From: Marinifilaceae bacterium
Lineage (GTDB): Bacteria > Bacteroidota > Bacteroidia > Bacteroidales > Marinifilaceae
Length of the DNA stretch: 64,000 nt
Direction: 5' to 3'
Assembly (NCBI GenBank): GCA_025210485.1
Contig: JAOARN010000003.1
Span: 62,001 to 126,000 of the forward strand
Shown here: one piece after another, positions 1,903-29,552 of the stretch
Position numbering within the stretch: position 1 is the first letter of the stretch
Layout of the letters: each line of letters opens with the position of its first letter
The notes under the pieces: model-generated
Databases searched by the model: none
The model's input: the letters and a program-made list of their open reading frames with translations, nothing else
Told to the model about the DNA's origin: nothing
Translations under genes and position numbers: made by a program

Positions 1903-2754
1903 ATGAATTATATGAAAAATATTTTTGTGGTACTAATAATGTTTGTTGCAATTAGTGCCACGGCTCAAACAGGTAAAACTCCATTTTTGAATTCAACCCA
2001 CAATTATAATGTCAACAATATTGCTGGTAGTACTTATTTATGGGAAGTTTTTCTTGGAGATGAAGGCACCGCAGCTACTGCAGGAACTCATTATTCTATT
2101 AAAAATGAAGGAACCAACTCATCTGACATCACTTGGTTAAAAGCCAATAATCCAGCTTCTGCTGATACTAAAGAACAGAAGTATTTTGTTGTGATTACCG
2201 AAACAGGTGCAAATGGCTGTATAACTAAAAGAGCTATTGATGTAGTTGTTGAAGCTAACGAATTTGATGTTACTATTGAAGATCCAGGAACAGCTTTATG
2301 TTCTAGTGCAGATGGTAAAATTATTAATACTGCTAAAGATAACTTAGGTAATTCTACTCGTTCTTTCAAGGTGAAAATGACTACAGATGGAGCATATCCA
2401 ACTGCTGGTTTCAAACCAGAATGGGAGTTTGAATATGAATTGACATCTACTATTGGTGACTTTACAAAATTACCAGTATGCGTAGGTGGTACAATTTCAG
2501 CTCCGTCGCATACAAGTATTGTCGCTGGTATTAAAAAATTAACAGGTAAGATAACAGTTCCTGCTGGTACTGCAGAAGTTACTATTACTACTGAGTCTGC
2601 TAATATTTGGGGAACAGCTGACGAAACAATAGTATTGAAACTTAAGGCTGTTAAAGAGAATAAATACTCTACTCCTGAAGCTGATAATACTAATAATACT
2701 GAAGATATCATTATTAAACCAATTCCAACAACAACGGATATTGCAACAGATTAA
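1903..2754 (+). CDS. Secreted PKD/Ig-like modular protein (283 aa)
   Basis: Same architecture as the preceding gene. The signal peptide ends in ATA before Gln22. A PKD-like module follows (Tyr-x-Trp-x-Val, Ser-Asp-Ile-Thr-Trp, Tyr-Phe-Val-Val-Ile-Thr-Glu, Asn-Gly-Cys), then an Ig-like beta domain. It ends in IKPIPTTTDIATD. There is no sorting domain. A second in-frame ATG lies at 1912; the upstream ATG was kept because it gives a normal n-region. An 83-base gap with a strong hairpin separates it from the next gene. The function is unknown; position and composition suggest a surface-fibre or adhesin subunit. Confidence 0.8.
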   Translation: MNYMKNIFVVLIMFVAISATAQTGKTPFLNSTHNYNVNNIAGSTYLWEVFLGDEGTAATAGTHYSIKNEGTNSSDITWLKANNPASADTKEQKYFVVITETGANGCITKRAIDVVVEANEFDVTIEDPGTALCSSADGKIINTAKDNLGNSTRSFKVKMTTDGAYPTAGFKPEWEFEYELTSTIGDFTKLPVCVGGTISAPSHTSIVAGIKKLTGKITVPAGTAEVTITTESANIWGTADETIVLKLKAVKENKYSTPEADNTNNTEDIIIKPIPTTTDIATD

Positions 2755-2785
2755 TTCAGCTTAATAAAATAAAAAAAATAAAACT

Positions 2786-2821
2786 CAATCTACTTCTTGA
2801 ATATGCTTAAGAAGTAGATTG
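2786..2821 (+). promoter_or_regulatory. Perfect 13-bp hairpin inside the secreted-protein operon
   Basis: Bases 2786-2798 (CAATCTACTTCTT) pair perfectly with 2809-2821, with a 10-base loop. No T-tract follows on the + strand, so it is not a standard intrinsic terminator. It lies in the only sizeable gap (83 bases) between otherwise tightly packed genes, 16 bases before the next ATG. It could be an mRNA-stabilising or processing hairpin, or could limit translation of the next gene. Confidence 0.6.
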
Positions 2822-2837
2822 GTAAAAAATATTAGAT

Positions 2838-3842
2838 ATGAAAAGATTTTTTTATTCAATATTTGCTTTAGTAGCTTTTGTTAGTTTTTCTAATATTGCT
2901 GCAGCACAAACTAATTCAGGTACAACTCCTGCAATTGGTACATCCCATAGCTATTGGGTTAATTCTAGTGATGGAACTACAGGTAAATTTGACACTGAAG
3001 GCCATAAAGGAAATGATTTCCAATGGTATATTACAAAATCAGATCTAGTAGGTGCTGTTCCTGCAGGTGACTTAAGTATAACATCTCCAGTAAAAACTTA
3101 TGTAAATGGTGCTACAGCTGTTACTGATATGTTTAAGGTTGATATTGATTGGCATGCTCCTTCTGTAAAAGGGGTTTACTACTTACATATTATTGAAACT
3201 GCTACTAATGGCTGTACCAATCATAAGGTAGAAAGAATTCAACCATTTAGTGATTTCAAATTACTTGTAAACAATATCAATAATCTTACAACTGAGGCTG
3301 ATGAAGCTGATAATATGACTGTTTGTGCAAATGATGTAACTCCTGTTTTAATTGATACTAAAGGAACGGCAGGCGATTTATCAGATGATGAAATCAGATA
3401 TAATTACGGTGTTAAGAAATTATATTATAAGATTACAGCACAGAATTTTGATAAAACACAAGCAAACTTCAAGTTCGATTATAATATTGATATTACTGAT
3501 GGTCCTACTACATTCTCAGCTTCATGGGGTACAATTGCAGGCGGAACATATACTAAAGTTGCTGATTTGACATTTACTGATGGAACTGATGCAACAGTAA
3601 ACATCGATGGTATTGCTGCAGCTGTAAATAAAACATTCTATGTGGTGGTAACACTTGATTACAACCAGGGAGATGCTACATTCAATGCTCCATTTGAAGG
3701 AACTGCTGTTCACGATTGTGTGTTCACATTAAAAGGCGCTAGTCAGGCTGCTGGAAATGCTATAGCTGCTCTACCTGCTGATGCTGACAGAAAACAAATT
3801 GTTAATCCAAGACCTAGTACTTCAGTTATTAGTTCAAACTAA
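2838..3842 (+). CDS. Secreted PKD/Ig-like modular protein (334 aa)
   Basis: Third complete member of the local series. The signal peptide is about 23 residues, ending AAA before Gln24. The N-terminal PKD-like module carries Phe-Gln-Trp-Tyr-Ile, Val-Asp-Ile-Asp-Trp, Gly-Val-Tyr-Tyr-Leu-His-Ile-Ile-Glu-Thr and Asn-Gly-Cys. A second beta-rich domain contains three spaced Asp clusters. It ends in NPRPSTSVISSN, again the Pro-x-Pro tail seen in its neighbours. There is no T9SS sorting domain. It is 24 bases upstream of the next gene. Role inferred as a cell-surface structural or adhesive subunit. Confidence 0.8.
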   Translation: MKRFFYSIFALVAFVSFSNIAAAQTNSGTTPAIGTSHSYWVNSSDGTTGKFDTEGHKGNDFQWYITKSDLVGAVPAGDLSITSPVKTYVNGATAVTDMFKVDIDWHAPSVKGVYYLHIIETATNGCTNHKVERIQPFSDFKLLVNNINNLTTEADEADNMTVCANDVTPVLIDTKGTAGDLSDDEIRYNYGVKKLYYKITAQNFDKTQANFKFDYNIDITDGPTTFSASWGTIAGGTYTKVADLTFTDGTDATVNIDGIAAAVNKTFYVVVTLDYNQGDATFNAPFEGTAVHDCVFTLKGASQAAGNAIAALPADADRKQIVNPRPSTSVISSN

Positions 3843-26000: not shown

Positions 26001-26723
26001 TATAATCAAATGCTATTAAAATTGGAAGAAAGTGCCAAATTATTAGCAAAATCAGAAAGAGAATCGGCTTGGAGAGAAATGGCAAGACAAATTGCTCATG
26101 AAATAAAAAATCCGCTTACTCCGATGAAACTTAGTATTCAATTTATGCAAAGACAGATAAATAGCGGTGGTGACGATTGGAAAGAAAAAATAGAGAGTTT
26201 AAGTCAAAGTTTAATCAACCAAATAAATAATTTAGCAGATATAGCATCGGCTTTTTCTGATTTTGCTAAACTTACAGAATCAAACTTGGAGGAATCTGAT
26301 ATTGTTGATATTGTTAAGAATAGTATTCAAATATACAGTAACGAAACCTGGGATGTTAGTTATGAAACTAATGTTGATACTGCAATTTGTATGGTTGATA
26401 AATCTCAAATACATAGAGCATTTGTAAATTTAATTACCAATGGAATACAGGCAACTCCAAAGGATAAAAACGTAGTTATCAAAATTAAGATTAATAAAAC
26501 AGATAAAAATACTCAAATTAGTTTTATTGATAATGGAACTGGTATTGAAGAAAGTTTAATGCCTAAATTATTTGTTCCAAACTTTACTACCAAGAATTCA
26601 GGAACTGGGCTAGGTCTTGCTATTGTGAAGAGTATTATTGAAAATTGTAATGGTGAAATAGAAGTTGAAACTGAAATTGGAAAAGGCTCTGTTTTTCATG
26701 TTTATCTTCCTAATCTTATATAA
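23052..26723 (+). CDS. Large membrane sensor histidine kinase (NtrY-like)
   Basis: 1223 residues from the ATG at 23052; the TTG three codons earlier is less likely. The N-terminal half has a membrane helix at ~25-45, an extracytoplasmic region, a block of about eight helices (~230-500), a second sensor region, helices near 740 and 775, another periplasmic loop and a helix near 940. A HAMP domain follows (Thr-Gln-Pro-Leu-Arg, then Asn-Asp-Glu-Ile-Gly). The H-box is Ala-His-Glu-Ile-Lys-Asn-Pro-Leu-Thr-Pro (His ~1015), with an N-box (Asn-Gly-Ile-Gln-Ala), a G-box and Gly-Thr-Gly-Leu-Gly-Leu-Ala-Ile-Val. It autophosphorylates and passes phosphate to a response regulator. None is adjacent; PorX is 3 kb away in a different unit. 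Confidence 0.9.
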   Translation: MANFKRTILLLNYQNILNVKKNIFTNSYSYLFISIILLLVSVFISYYNTNVDVQYKYTKHCQETINRYEEEIDNVISDFEKDFIGSKDSLNNLLHTVESRLERHNTYIQVYKESEIIYWSNYGFEFRREHISSPVHKIASGIYILKKYMINDLELWTFHLVAKQYSIVNKFFKDEISEEFDVPTNFSFIYDSPEKNAIYNSSGDYLFSLARIKIAPGENISFNYITYLYLFGIMFFMLFGLLKFTKASPGKMTYLFFIAFAFAFIAFRYIMLAYNFPKQLYSYELFSPQLFASSNFIPSLGDLLLNSLCVIYLMFLYSSVLNNYIDRANTRIRLILLGLNLLFLFIIGNLAIDLIENIINDSSLDLLMYTSYDNKVFIFVAYLIISIILFTATIQAKLVSKIIFVSKDFILKYKKFLIVAAIFFIVGLIYFEPNVYKLLLMFILSFSYLPQLFKKEDTFYIARILLMLLLAVFASFLINQLSTKNEKLERYITASNLSTEIDFKAESLLNKLSDRLIQDKTLGFLCNSDNLNEQRITSYLRNKYFSGYWENYDLSITCCSYVDELKLNATDSIQNCYEFFIDIINQDGEETNDPNFFLINDFDGLVSYIGIIPFENRNLYVELISRIEYRGIGYPDLLNDDSNSRSGANRKYSYAKYKKGQLLMSSGRYNYNFNINAYTRAENQHYYIEKDNYTHLIYELGDENVVIVSKKKINWSRRTVAIPFIFIFLFILSTLVNFSSSKILKKKTDLSFRYRIQIPYIILLMLFFCIISGGTIYYSLEKEYNRNEFELREKVNYVKSVFVDNPDLLNSYYELNNKLIDLSNQLYADIHLYNNKAELMATSRSEIFIKELQSRRMNYKAYTALKNHKKSNYIHNESIGEAKYISLYEPITSRGSEIIAYVNIPYFTRSSEIKMELFDFVLAGVNLNIIIIIIAISTSVFISNRITQPLRLIQKRIKETKLGAKSETMVYHRNDEIGSLVNEYNQMLLKLEESAKLLAKSERESAWREMARQIAHEIKNPLTPMKLSIQFMQRQINSGGDDWKEKIESLSQSLINQINNLADIASAFSDFAKLTESNLEESDIVDIVKNSIQIYSNETWDVSYETNVDTAICMVDKSQIHRAFVNLITNGIQATPKDKNVVIKIKINKTDKNTQISFIDNGTGIEESLMPKLFVPNFTTKNSGTGLGLAIVKSIIENCNGEIEVETEIGKGSVFHVYLPNLI

Positions 26724-26792
26724 TAAAAAGTTTATGTTGTATAATATCATATACATTTATATTCATTTTAGTAAACTTAAAAAAACTGTATA

Positions 26793-26800
26793 TATTTTTG
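26793..26800 (+). promoter_or_regulatory. Probable -7 element for the cobalamin-riboswitch transcript
   Basis: TATTTTTG matches TAnnTTTG and lies 33 bases before the riboswitch. The -33 region is only weakly matched. Confidence 0.45.
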
Positions 26801-26832
26801 TAGCAGAGTAAACTTAATTAATTAATTTAGTT

Positions 26833-27005
26833 TTTGGTAAATCTGAGTTGAATTATTCTTAGATTGAAAAGGGAATCTGGTGAAATTCCAGGACTATACC
26901 CGTAGCTGTAATCTTTTATTAATATTCTACTCTCCTCTTTTGTCACTGTTCTATTTGAATGGGAAGGCATGAGTAAGAAAAAAGAAAGTCAGAAGACCTG
27001 CCAAA
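26833..27005 (+). ncRNA. Cobalamin (B12) riboswitch
   Basis: The conserved elements appear in order: TTTGG at 26833-26837 (P1 5' strand), AAAAGGGAA, a Gly-rich hairpin TCTGG-TGAAA-TTCCAG, GGACTATACCCGTAGCTGTAA, a variable arm with GGGAAGGC, and the B12 box AAGTCAGAAGACCTGCC at 26986-27002. The element closes with CCAAA, pairing with TTTGG. Such elements bind adenosylcobalamin or a related cobalamin and usually switch off uptake genes when B12 is plentiful. It lies 104 bases before the BtuG-like gene. Confidence 0.95.
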
Positions 27006-27109
27006 GATTGAAGTATTGTTATTAATTGCTTTCGGGAGTTAGAGCAAAATGCATATCTTAAAACTTGATTGTTTCACTATCTCCATCGAAATCTTAAAAC
27101 TAATTTAAA

Positions 27110-28564
27110 ATGAAAAACAAATTTTTATTCGCTATTATTGTTTTAGTGAGTTTTGCTTCTGTTTTTACTTCGTGTAAAGATGATGATGATAACCCACCTG
27201 TGGTTGATTTTAAAATTGATAAATACGCTATTCTTCTTGGTGATAGTTTCAATTTACAATCGAATGTTACAAACAAAGATGGTGCAAGTTTTCAATGGAC
27301 AGTAAATGGCGAAATTTTATCAAATGAGGAGAATTTCACCTTTACCCCAACCGAGGGAGGTTTATATACTGTTAATCTTAAGGTAACCAACGGTGATGGA
27401 CAAGATTCTAAAGAATATAAACTTACTGTTGATGATTATTCTTTTGGGACATATTTTGTTGTAGAAGGTGCTTTTTCAGGAGGAAATGGTCAATTAGCTT
27501 TTATTTCACGTAATGGTATTTTTGCAGATTCTGTTTACTATAAAGTAAATAAAAAGCATATGGGAAACATCCTTCAGGATATGGATATCTATAACGGAAA
27601 GATTTACCTTGTTTCGCAAAATGGAGCAAAAGAAGGAGGACAAGGAAAAATAGTAGTTGCTGATTCAAAAACATTAGCTTTTGATAAAGTGATATCTAGC
27701 CCAGAGCTTGATGATGCTAGTTTTTGGGCTCAACATATTGTGGTAGTTAACGAAAATAAAGCATATGTTCAGTATACTGATACTTATGAACAAAATTCAG
27801 GAATTAAGGTATTAGATTTATCTACGGGTAGTTTAGCTTCCGATCCTATAGCTGGAACATTTGGGAAATTTGGAGTAGAAGGAGCATCCAAATTAAGAAT
27901 GTTGGATACAGATGATTTCGTATACGCTGCTTGTGGTGAGAAATTGGTTAAGATTAATAAATCAACAGACGAACTTGAAGCAAGCTTAAATTTTGGAAAT
28001 CAGATTAAGGGAGTCACAAAAGATAAAGATGGTAAAATAAAACTTATTTTAGCGGGTGAATATACTGGTTCAATAACAGATTTTAATACTCCTGCAACTC
28101 TTATCTCTAATCCAGGTGTTGTGTTTGTAAATGAGAATTTATCAGTATCTAAAGATTTAGACTTAGGAAATGATATTGATTTTAGTGTAATGGCATGGAA
28201 TCCAAGTATCGGATTGACATACTCTCCTAGTCTTACAAATCTATATTTTTGGAATGAAGGTTCTGTATATTCTTATGATTATTCAGCAGAAAGATTGGAT
28301 AAGATTGTTAATATTGCCGATGAGGAAGATTTGGATGGATATGTGTTAAGCGGTTATTTAGGAGCAACTGAGGATGTATTGTATATTGGTGCAGTTGGAG
28401 ATGCTTATAGTAAGACTAAAATATTTGGATACAATATCAAAGAAGGTGGTCGATTAAGTCTTGCTAATCTTGGATACGATAGAGATAAGGACGGAAAAAT
28501 TGACAATTACTATTATTTAGGAACAGGACCATTGTCAGGTGTATACTTTACCAGAGATTTCTAA
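27110..28564 (+). CDS. BtuG-like cobalamin-binding surface lipoprotein (PKD + DUF5074 propeller)
   Basis: 484 residues. The signal peptide ends with lipobox Phe-Thr-Ser-Cys followed by Lys-Asp-Asp-Asp-Asp, an acidic stretch resembling a surface-export signal of Bacteroidota lipoproteins. Residues ~30-110 form a PKD-like domain (Phe-Gln-Trp-Thr-Val-Asn-Gly, Gly-Gly-Leu-Tyr-Thr-Val). Residues ~115-484 look like the YncE/DUF5074 beta-propeller of BtuG, which captures B12 at the surface with very high affinity for a BtuB receptor. The upstream cobalamin riboswitch supports this role. Unusually, no BtuB TonB receptor or other B12 gene is next to it. A terminator follows. Confidence 0.85.
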   Translation: MKNKFLFAIIVLVSFASVFTSCKDDDDNPPVVDFKIDKYAILLGDSFNLQSNVTNKDGASFQWTVNGEILSNEENFTFTPTEGGLYTVNLKVTNGDGQDSKEYKLTVDDYSFGTYFVVEGAFSGGNGQLAFISRNGIFADSVYYKVNKKHMGNILQDMDIYNGKIYLVSQNGAKEGGQGKIVVADSKTLAFDKVISSPELDDASFWAQHIVVVNENKAYVQYTDTYEQNSGIKVLDLSTGSLASDPIAGTFGKFGVEGASKLRMLDTDDFVYAACGEKLVKINKSTDELEASLNFGNQIKGVTKDKDGKIKLILAGEYTGSITDFNTPATLISNPGVVFVNENLSVSKDLDLGNDIDFSVMAWNPSIGLTYSPSLTNLYFWNEGSVYSYDYSAERLDKIVNIADEEDLDGYVLSGYLGATEDVLYIGAVGDAYSKTKIFGYNIKEGGRLSLANLGYDRDKDGKIDNYYYLGTGPLSGVYFTRDF

Positions 28565-28587
28565 TATTTTTAAACAGTTATGTTTTT

Positions 28588-28628
28588 AAAAAGCGATATT
28601 TTCAAATTTTGAAAATATCGCTTTTTTT
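28588..28628 (+). terminator. Terminator after the BtuG-like gene
   Basis: A 16-bp perfect stem (28588-28603 with 28611-28626), a 7-base loop and a terminal T-run, 23 bases after the stop codon. It isolates the riboswitch-BtuG unit as a single-gene transcript. Confidence 0.92.
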
Positions 28629-28826
28629 ATTTGAAATTTTCTAAATATAACTTACTATGTTGAATTAATTGATTTGTAGATTCATGCTAAATTCTAGCAA
28701 AATAATGGCAATATTTTTGTAAAATCGAATAAACAAATACAACCTTAGAGCTAGATTTTACGTATATTTTAAAAAGCGGTTCGCTGTTAAAGGTCAAAAT
28801 ATCCATCATATAAAACTAAACCCCAT

Positions 28827-29552
28827 ATGAATATCTTTGCTACATTACTTTTATTTTTAAATATTTCTTGTCTGTTCCCTAATACTAATGATAATGGTAT
28901 TCAAAAAACCGAAAAATTCAAATATATAATACATTATGGTCTTATAAATGGAGGGACTGCATGTCTTGAGTTGACAAAAACAAACTATAAGTCAAGACCT
29001 GTTTATCATATGAAAGCTACAGGTAATACAGTAGGAATGTTTAATACATTGTATTCAGTGCATGATGTGTATGAATCATATTTTTGCATAAATACGGCAA
29101 AACCGTATTTAGCAATAAGAGATATTCGTGAAGGAAGCTATCGCAGATATAATGAACTAGAGTTTGATAGAACAAAAAAATTGGCAACAAGCATGCGCTC
29201 AGGACTGCATGAGATATGTGATAGTACCTTTGATATACTTTCTGCATTCCAATTTGCAAGAATTAATCTTTTTAATGACGATTTAAAAAAAGGTCAAATT
29301 ATAAAACTTAAAACATTATTTGCGGACAAACCTTTTGTTCTCAGATTTAAGTATTATGGCAAAGAAAAAATACGAAGCAAAATAGGAAAAATAGACTGCT
29401 ATAAATTTGTTCCATACGTCCAGACAGGAAGACTATTTAAAGAAGAAAATGATATGATAATATGGATAAGTGCAGATGAAAGAAAAATCCCAATACGAAT
29501 TCAATTCGATTTGTTTTTAGGTTCATTGAGATGTGATCTGGTTGAGGATTGA
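28827..29552 (+). CDS. DUF3108 domain-containing protein
   Basis: 241 residues with a short hydrophobic N-terminus (probable signal peptide, ~18 residues). The body fits DUF3108: Tyr-Ile-Ile-His-Tyr-Gly-Leu-Ile-Asn-Gly-Gly, His-Met-Lys-Ala-Thr-Gly, a central Asp-Ile-Leu-Ser-Ala-Phe, and the C-terminal Trp-Ile-Ser-Ala-Asp-Glu-Arg-Lys-Ile-Pro-Ile-Arg-Ile. These are periplasmic or envelope proteins of unknown function. A TATTTTTG element at 28712-28719 may drive it. It lies 147 bases upstream of porX on the same strand; coupling with porX is possible but not shown. Confidence 0.85.
   Translation: MNIFATLLLFLNISCLFPNTNDNGIQKTEKFKYIIHYGLINGGTACLELTKTNYKSRPVYHMKATGNTVGMFNTLYSVHDVYESYFCINTAKPYLAIRDIREGSYRRYNELEFDRTKKLATSMRSGLHEICDSTFDILSAFQFARINLFNDDLKKGQIIKLKTLFADKPFVLRFKYYGKEKIRSKIGKIDCYKFVPYVQTGRLFKEENDMIIWISADERKIPIRIQFDLFLGSLRCDLVED

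Follow-up and report, generated by a model that had tools for sequence, protein, structure and literature searches.

What does a lipoprotein under the control of a cobalamin riboswitch do when no gene for the BtuB importer lies beside it? This question is raised by a 484-codon gene in a 64,000 nt stretch of the genome of a Marinifilaceae bacterium (contig JAOARN010000003.1, positions 62,001 to 126,000; hereafter the window). The initial annotation had described a monocistronic BtuG-like lipoprotein, which might supply B12 to a distant BtuB or act as a scavenger independent of one.

The riboswitch-led lipoprotein unit

The elements of the unit are as follows (positions in the window).

26818–27019, + strand: complete cobalamin riboswitch aptamer (RF00174; cmscan 104.9 bits, E 3.2e-25, model positions 1-189 of 189)
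27026–27047, + strand: hairpin TTGCT..AGCAA with a CGGGA loop, recognized by eye just 3′ of the aptamer
27110–28564, + strand: open reading frame of the 484-aa lipoprotein, comprising a signal and lipobox (residues 1-22), an acidic tail, a PKD_3 domain and a DUF5074 propeller
27194–27391, + strand: PKD_3 domain, residues 29-94 (Pfam PF16820, E 3.7e-12)
27446–28450, + strand: DUF5074 propeller, residues 113-447 by Pfam (PF16819, E 1.1e-37), with the model continuing to residue 484
28588–28626, + strand: Rho-independent terminator (18-bp stem, 3-nt loop, T-tail)

Control by a B12 riboswitch is confirmed by the complete aptamer ahead of the gene, which at 104.9 bits exceeds the gathering score of 31.5 bits. 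The start assigned to the unit earlier, 26833, falls within this match, and 90 bases lie between the end of the aptamer and the gene. The hairpin downstream of the aptamer is likely the regulatory (P13/L13-type) part of the riboswitch; the CGGGA motif is found at most 60 nt downstream of 8 of the 12 cobalamin riboswitches in this genome. Loop-loop pairing downstream of the aptamer was scored by a script on loci of which some were wrongly oriented; for the riboswitch of the window no signal emerged, the best pairing being 6 bp long and equalled by 60% of shuffles.

The terminator is the sole terminator-like site within 26500–28900 (shuffle mean 0.5), and its predicted RNA fold of -19.6 kcal/mol (z -7.1) was reached by 0 of 200 shuffles. 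Both neighbors are unrelated to the lipoprotein gene: a large histidine kinase gene running in the same direction ends at 26723, and the gene for a DUF3108 protein starts at 28827. Because the scan of 26500–28900 found no terminator between the kinase gene and the riboswitch, transcription may read through into the lipoprotein unit. The single match resembling TAnnTTTG upstream of the riboswitch, which we take to be a Bacteroidota-type -7-like promoter motif, is located at 26793, and the + strand of the window holds 64 of this kind in all. Thus, the riboswitch, the one gene and the strong terminator stand as annotated, while a promoter of its own does not.

The N-terminus of the protein, MKNKFLFAIIVLVSFASVFTSC-KDDDD, reads as a lipobox followed by an acidic tail of the export type. 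The signal peptide, the lipobox Cys and the acidic residues past this Cys (SVFTSC-KDDDD), which are features of Bacteroidota surface lipoproteins, are all present, in agreement with the lipoprotein signal noted before. The lipobox Cys is found in 37 of 37 rows of an alignment of the class to which the protein belongs (A3), and all 37 members match PF16819. The window protein itself scores 130.3 bits with this family against the curated cut-off of 27.2, and a search of NCBIfam with it returned no informative name. The PKD domain is also real but cannot be called added, since PKD_3 occurs in 19 of the 37 class members in A3 and the same layout is seen in BT1487 (BtuK2). Near the C-terminus, an Asp-rich, calcium-binding-like loop, DRDKDGKIDNYY, is encoded at 28478–28513 (residues 457-468); the relative from strain JC040 has it as well (DKDQDNKIDNYY), and it is missing from the remaining nine rows of another alignment (A1).

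A sister class to BtuG

An AlphaFold2 model built from the 37-row alignment (mean pLDDT 87.3, pTM 0.86) predicts the BtuG-type propeller fold that had been proposed. Compared by VIA-align, the model matches BtuG2 (8bmz) with Z 31.6 and rmsd 3.5 over 317 residues at 20% identity, BtuG3 (8okv) with Z 31.3 and BtuK1 (9s6c) with Z 29.5; the top solved matches of the predicted fold are thus B12-binding lipoproteins, and the first structure beyond the BtuG and BtuK families has Z 25.7. Foldseek ranked 4r5o (BT1487) first, with E 2.1e-19 and coverage of both the PKD domain and the propeller. In the available text of PMC12751083, BT1487 is BtuK2 and BT_1486 is BtuK1; BtuK2 is enriched in vesicles and bound no cobalamin in the test published there, whereas BtuK1, which has the same fold, binds cobalamin. 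A PKD-propeller layout is thus no guarantee of binding.

To place the protein, we used a tree of 96 propellers, consisting of 57 rows of its DUF5074 class and 39 BtuG-type rows, with BtuK sequences absent. The two groups were separated with SH-aLRT 100. The tree was made by a quick method and long branches are flagged; the window protein has such a branch (length 1.14) and pairs with support 99 with a propeller of Marinilabiliaceae bacterium JC040, its nearest relative at 40% identity. The Pfam DUF5074 model gave 178-296 bits for four other class members, 130 bits for the window protein and 68.7 bits for the BtuB-linked BtuG of the same genome, so that PF16819 is a broad family weakly taking in canonical BtuG too. 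A profile of the class scored BtuG2 with 77 bits and the BtuK2 and BtuK1 sequences, which are not in the tree, with 50 and 49 bits, respectively. To judge from its sequence, the window protein is no BtuG but a member of a sister DUF5074 class homologous to BtuG. The label BtuG-like, understood as BtuG, has to be given up in view of the tree split and of the genuine BtuG (phmmer to BtuG2, E 4.6e-119) that lies beside the BtuB gene of this genome.

The protein shares features with three known groups of B12 lipoproteins. BtuG1-3 of Bacteroides thetaiotaomicron are propeller lipoproteins of riboswitch-led B12 loci, with a like predicted fold and a profile-profile probability of 99.9 to the window protein; the latter, however, is about 20% identical to them, falls into a separate clade, carries a PKD domain before the propeller, is encoded away from btuB in a genome that also has a true BtuG, and does not conserve Trp194 and Tyr316 of BtuG2. 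BtuK1 and BtuK2 are likewise propeller lipoproteins of B12 loci, but score lower than BtuG2 with the class profile, and their genes share an operon with btuB1 as far as described in the available part of PMC12751083. In BtuH2 (7biz), PKD-type domains precede the B12-binding domain and are matched by the PKD region of the window protein, but the binding domain of BtuH is no propeller, and the BtuH-like gene of this genome is a separate one on another contig (C35).

The pocket residues of BtuG2 named in the available text of PMC10404256 are W194, Y239, W272, Y316 and Y335. At the position of Tyr316, all 39 BtuG-type rows carry an aromatic residue, while 47 of 56 class rows carry Asn and the window protein carries Ser. 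At that of Tyr335, an aromatic residue is seen in 49 of 56 class rows, and the window protein has Ala with a Tyr adjacent. Residues are matched loosely over the C-terminal half of the propeller, where the profile and the multiple alignment differ by one or two residues. Tyr239 is kept, Trp194 is not, and the W272 position falls into a gap. These three residues vary even among BtuG-type rows, and Trp194 is missing from many BtuG-type proteins linked to BtuB. The check on BtuG binding residues proposed in the initial annotation therefore came out divided, with Tyr239 conserved and Trp194 and Tyr316 not, and does not settle the ligand because loss of Trp194 is common among BtuB-linked BtuG types. 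Within its own class, where Gly152, Asp157, Gln170 and an Arg at 221 are among the invariants, the window protein keeps most such residues (e.g. G152, Q156, D157, Q170 and H209) but departs at 221 (Gln, against Arg in 36 of 36 others), 207 (Ala, against Pro in 34 of 36) and 414 (Ser, against Tyr in 36 of 36). The predicted fold, the gene context and the regulation make a cobamide site plausible, although its residues would differ from those of BtuG.

B12 loci of the class and of the window's genome

A scan of genome contigs with the single sequence found no relative of the window protein, whereas an alignment-based scan found 47 class loci from named genomes, mostly of Bacteroidales and Chitinophagaceae. 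A cobalamin riboswitch lies upstream on the same strand in 34 of the 47 loci; by comparison, the 4.5 Mb of the window's genome hold 12 in all. BtuB is present in 37 and a BtuG-type gene in 39 of the loci, as detected by profiles whose source loci came from the same genome family; in a small control of the BtuB profile, four other TonB-receptor genes in control loci (L014, L019, L023 and L056) gave no match as good as E 1e-5. Of the 13 loci without a visible riboswitch, 12 start at a contig end or inside the gene for BtuB or BtuG, which leaves L118 as the single real miss. In several loci, a PKD + BtuH gene lies between BtuG and the class gene: the PKD-BtuH copy of L109 matches the BtuH domain of BtuG1 (8blw) with E 2.4e-67 and BtuH2 (7biz) with E 5.2e-36, and the intervening genes of L083 and L089 match this copy. 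In strain JC040 (L073), a single riboswitch stands at the head of a run comprising two class propellers, PKD-BtuH, BtuB and BtuG. These contexts indicate that the DUF5074 class normally belongs to B12 uptake, its usual home being riboswitch-led operons with BtuB, BtuG and often BtuH. In a published survey, PF16819 propellers adjoin 40% of the DUF4465 genes of the larger cluster (PMC13398666, available text), and we found no functional study of the DUF5074 class among open PMC papers.

A class gene directly under a riboswitch is not unique to the window. The riboswitch lies less than 200 bases ahead of the class gene in 7 of the 47 loci by script, or 8 with L075 included. In L081, L086 and L097, it directly precedes the class gene and no BtuB is found in the stretch, the contig of L097 ending soon after. 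Ten class loci have no BtuB; leaving out L111 and L114, whose stretches start inside a BtuG-type gene, we searched the genomes of the other eight, and BtuB was found elsewhere in 8 of 8, scoring 516-878 bits where the next match in those genomes reached no more than 72 bits. Among 198 sampled genomes of the order, 11 had the class at a cut of at least 130 bits, which was picked after viewing the list and leaves out G257 (122 bits). BtuB occurs in 11 of these 11, which is weak evidence because 175 of the 198 genomes have it; adjacency is the informative part, the class gene lying within 5 kb of BtuB in 8 of the 11 genomes and on a different contig in the window's genome (G000), G163 and G250.

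In the window's genome, the search for BtuB and riboswitches that had been suggested yielded one match of BtuB grade, on contig C63, and the 12 cobalamin riboswitches. As the window belongs to contig C119, the lack of a BtuB neighbor is confirmed. The BtuB gene on C63 adjoins the true BtuG, led by a cobalamin riboswitch. On C35, a riboswitch is followed by an InlB-repeat lipoprotein gene and then by the gene for a BtuH-like lipoprotein of 309 aa (8blw, E 2.7e-34; 7biz, E 3.5e-31). DUF4465 domains, which are those of the BtuJ family reported to bind B12 (PMC13398666, available text), are encoded on C40 and C19, both riboswitch-led. Runs of cobalamin biosynthesis genes, named by reading, are located on C124 and C101. 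The parts that form a single run in JC040 are thus dispersed here, with the class propeller on C119, BtuH on C35 and BtuB-BtuG on C63, each led by a riboswitch.

Several other riboswitch-led genes were seen in this genome. The DUF4465 gene on C19 (L013, 7346–16819, - strand; riboswitch, L002) encodes a secreted protein of 3158 aa with CUB and BNR_assoc_N stretches, a clostripain-family peptidase C11, DUF4465 and a type IX secretion tail; one might speculate that this B12-controlled protease fused to DUF4465 frees B12 from protein carriers and catches it. A search for 'clostripain' together with 'DUF4465' found no paper among open PMC papers. The frame of the DUF4465 lipoprotein on C40 (L022, oriented 2501–3801; riboswitch, L011) is interrupted after the signal part and before the domain, indicating a pseudogene or an assembly error. 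On C34 and C146 (L015 and L023), cobalamin riboswitches precede an nrdD/nrdG pair (anaerobic ribonucleotide reductase) and a YidE/AspT-like transporter, again named by reading. The riboswitch on C91 (L014) is followed by genes for a second TonB receptor (844 aa, CarboxypepD_reg-like), a PepSY-like membrane protein and a methyltransferase-like protein; this receptor gave no match to the BtuB profile, and the set may represent a further uptake route for corrinoids or metals. Those on C89 and C152 (L018 and L019) have no clear gene directly after them; the nearest downstream frames on the same strand (198 and 185 aa) begin about 460 and 650 bases away.

A candidate role in cobamide capture

The window protein is probably a cobamide-repressed, surface-exposed accessory lipoprotein that captures cobamides for the distant BtuB-BtuG. 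This reading is supported by the riboswitch, the fold matches to B12-binding lipoproteins, the operon partners of the class and the single riboswitch-led BtuB, and is weakened by the change of pocket Tyr316 to Ser, the lost class invariants, the long branch and the failure of BtuK2 to bind. The sequence supports the regulation, the anchor, the fold and the partners, while surface exposure, binding and hand-over are what we infer. By analogy with known Bacteroides riboswitches, a low level of cobamide inside the cell would permit expression, and the lipid anchor and acidic tail would place the protein on the outer face of the outer membrane. The PKD domain may space the propeller away from the membrane, and a face of the propeller may capture cobamides, to be handed directly or via BtuH to the single BtuB-BtuG importer on C63, where the genome's true BtuG, and not the window protein, would form the lid of BtuB. 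Of the two alternatives left by the initial annotation, supply to a distant BtuB is probably right, the genome encoding exactly one, on C63; a scavenger independent of BtuB is not needed and finds no support.

The Foldseek match over both domains to BT1487, described as non-binding and vesicle-enriched in PMC12751083 (available text), and the departures from the BtuG2 pocket and class invariants would also suit a cobamide-regulated accessory lipoprotein that, like BtuK2, does not bind and is perhaps sorted to vesicles or serves as a scaffold. We regard this as rather unlikely, given that the class profile favors BtuG2 over both BtuK proteins and that BtuK1 does bind with the same fold (PMC12751083, available text). 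The long branch and the lost invariants might instead mark a decaying, non-functional leftover of a dispersed B12 operon, but the intact 484-codon frame with its signal, the complete riboswitch, the terminator and the conserved residues that are kept (G152, Q156, D157, Q170 and H209) make this quite improbable. Beta-propellers in general bind many ligands, and with pocket residues unlike those of BtuG the propeller could have been adapted to a different scarce ligand, with control by B12 kept; this is improbable for a cobalamin-regulated protein whose class is mostly found in B12 uptake operons with BtuB, BtuG and often BtuH. A second BtuG forming a lid on the single BtuB would accord with a predicted fold the same as that of BtuG2 and BtuG3, yet a true BtuG already adjoins the BtuB on C63 and the tree separates the two groups with support 100. 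In addition, BtuG2 has a short linker running from its anchor along BtuB, which may serve as a hinge (PMC10404256, available text), and the intervening PKD domain is hard to fit with such an arrangement, making a second lid very improbable.

Beyond accessory capture by the window protein, a broader proposal, which we put forward tentatively and hold to be somewhat doubtful, is that PKD-DUF5074 proteins, next to BtuG and BtuK, form a third class of propellers that capture cobamides. Such a class would have a pocket of its own, with Asn in place of the aromatic residue at 316 and the Arg that all 36 other members share, and would act as a free-standing first catcher or in a relay from BtuH to BtuB-BtuG; the operon of the nearest relative would here have been taken apart into riboswitch units.

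BtuG, BtuH, BtuJ and BtuK have already been described, and PF16819 was linked to B12 loci in the published survey (PMC13398666, available text). The present analysis adds the division of PF16819 into BtuG-type proteins and a sister class, the usual place of this class in B12 operons, and a solo riboswitch-led class gene in a genome with dispersed B12 parts. B12 uptake counts in competition among gut Bacteroidota, and new capture proteins refine the picture of how cobamide is captured and passed on. The dispersed layout would permit the capture steps to be tested singly. If the class binds cobamides, DUF5074, a family of unknown function, would gain a role beyond BtuG, and its solo riboswitch-controlled copies would mean that capture proteins need no co-encoded importer.
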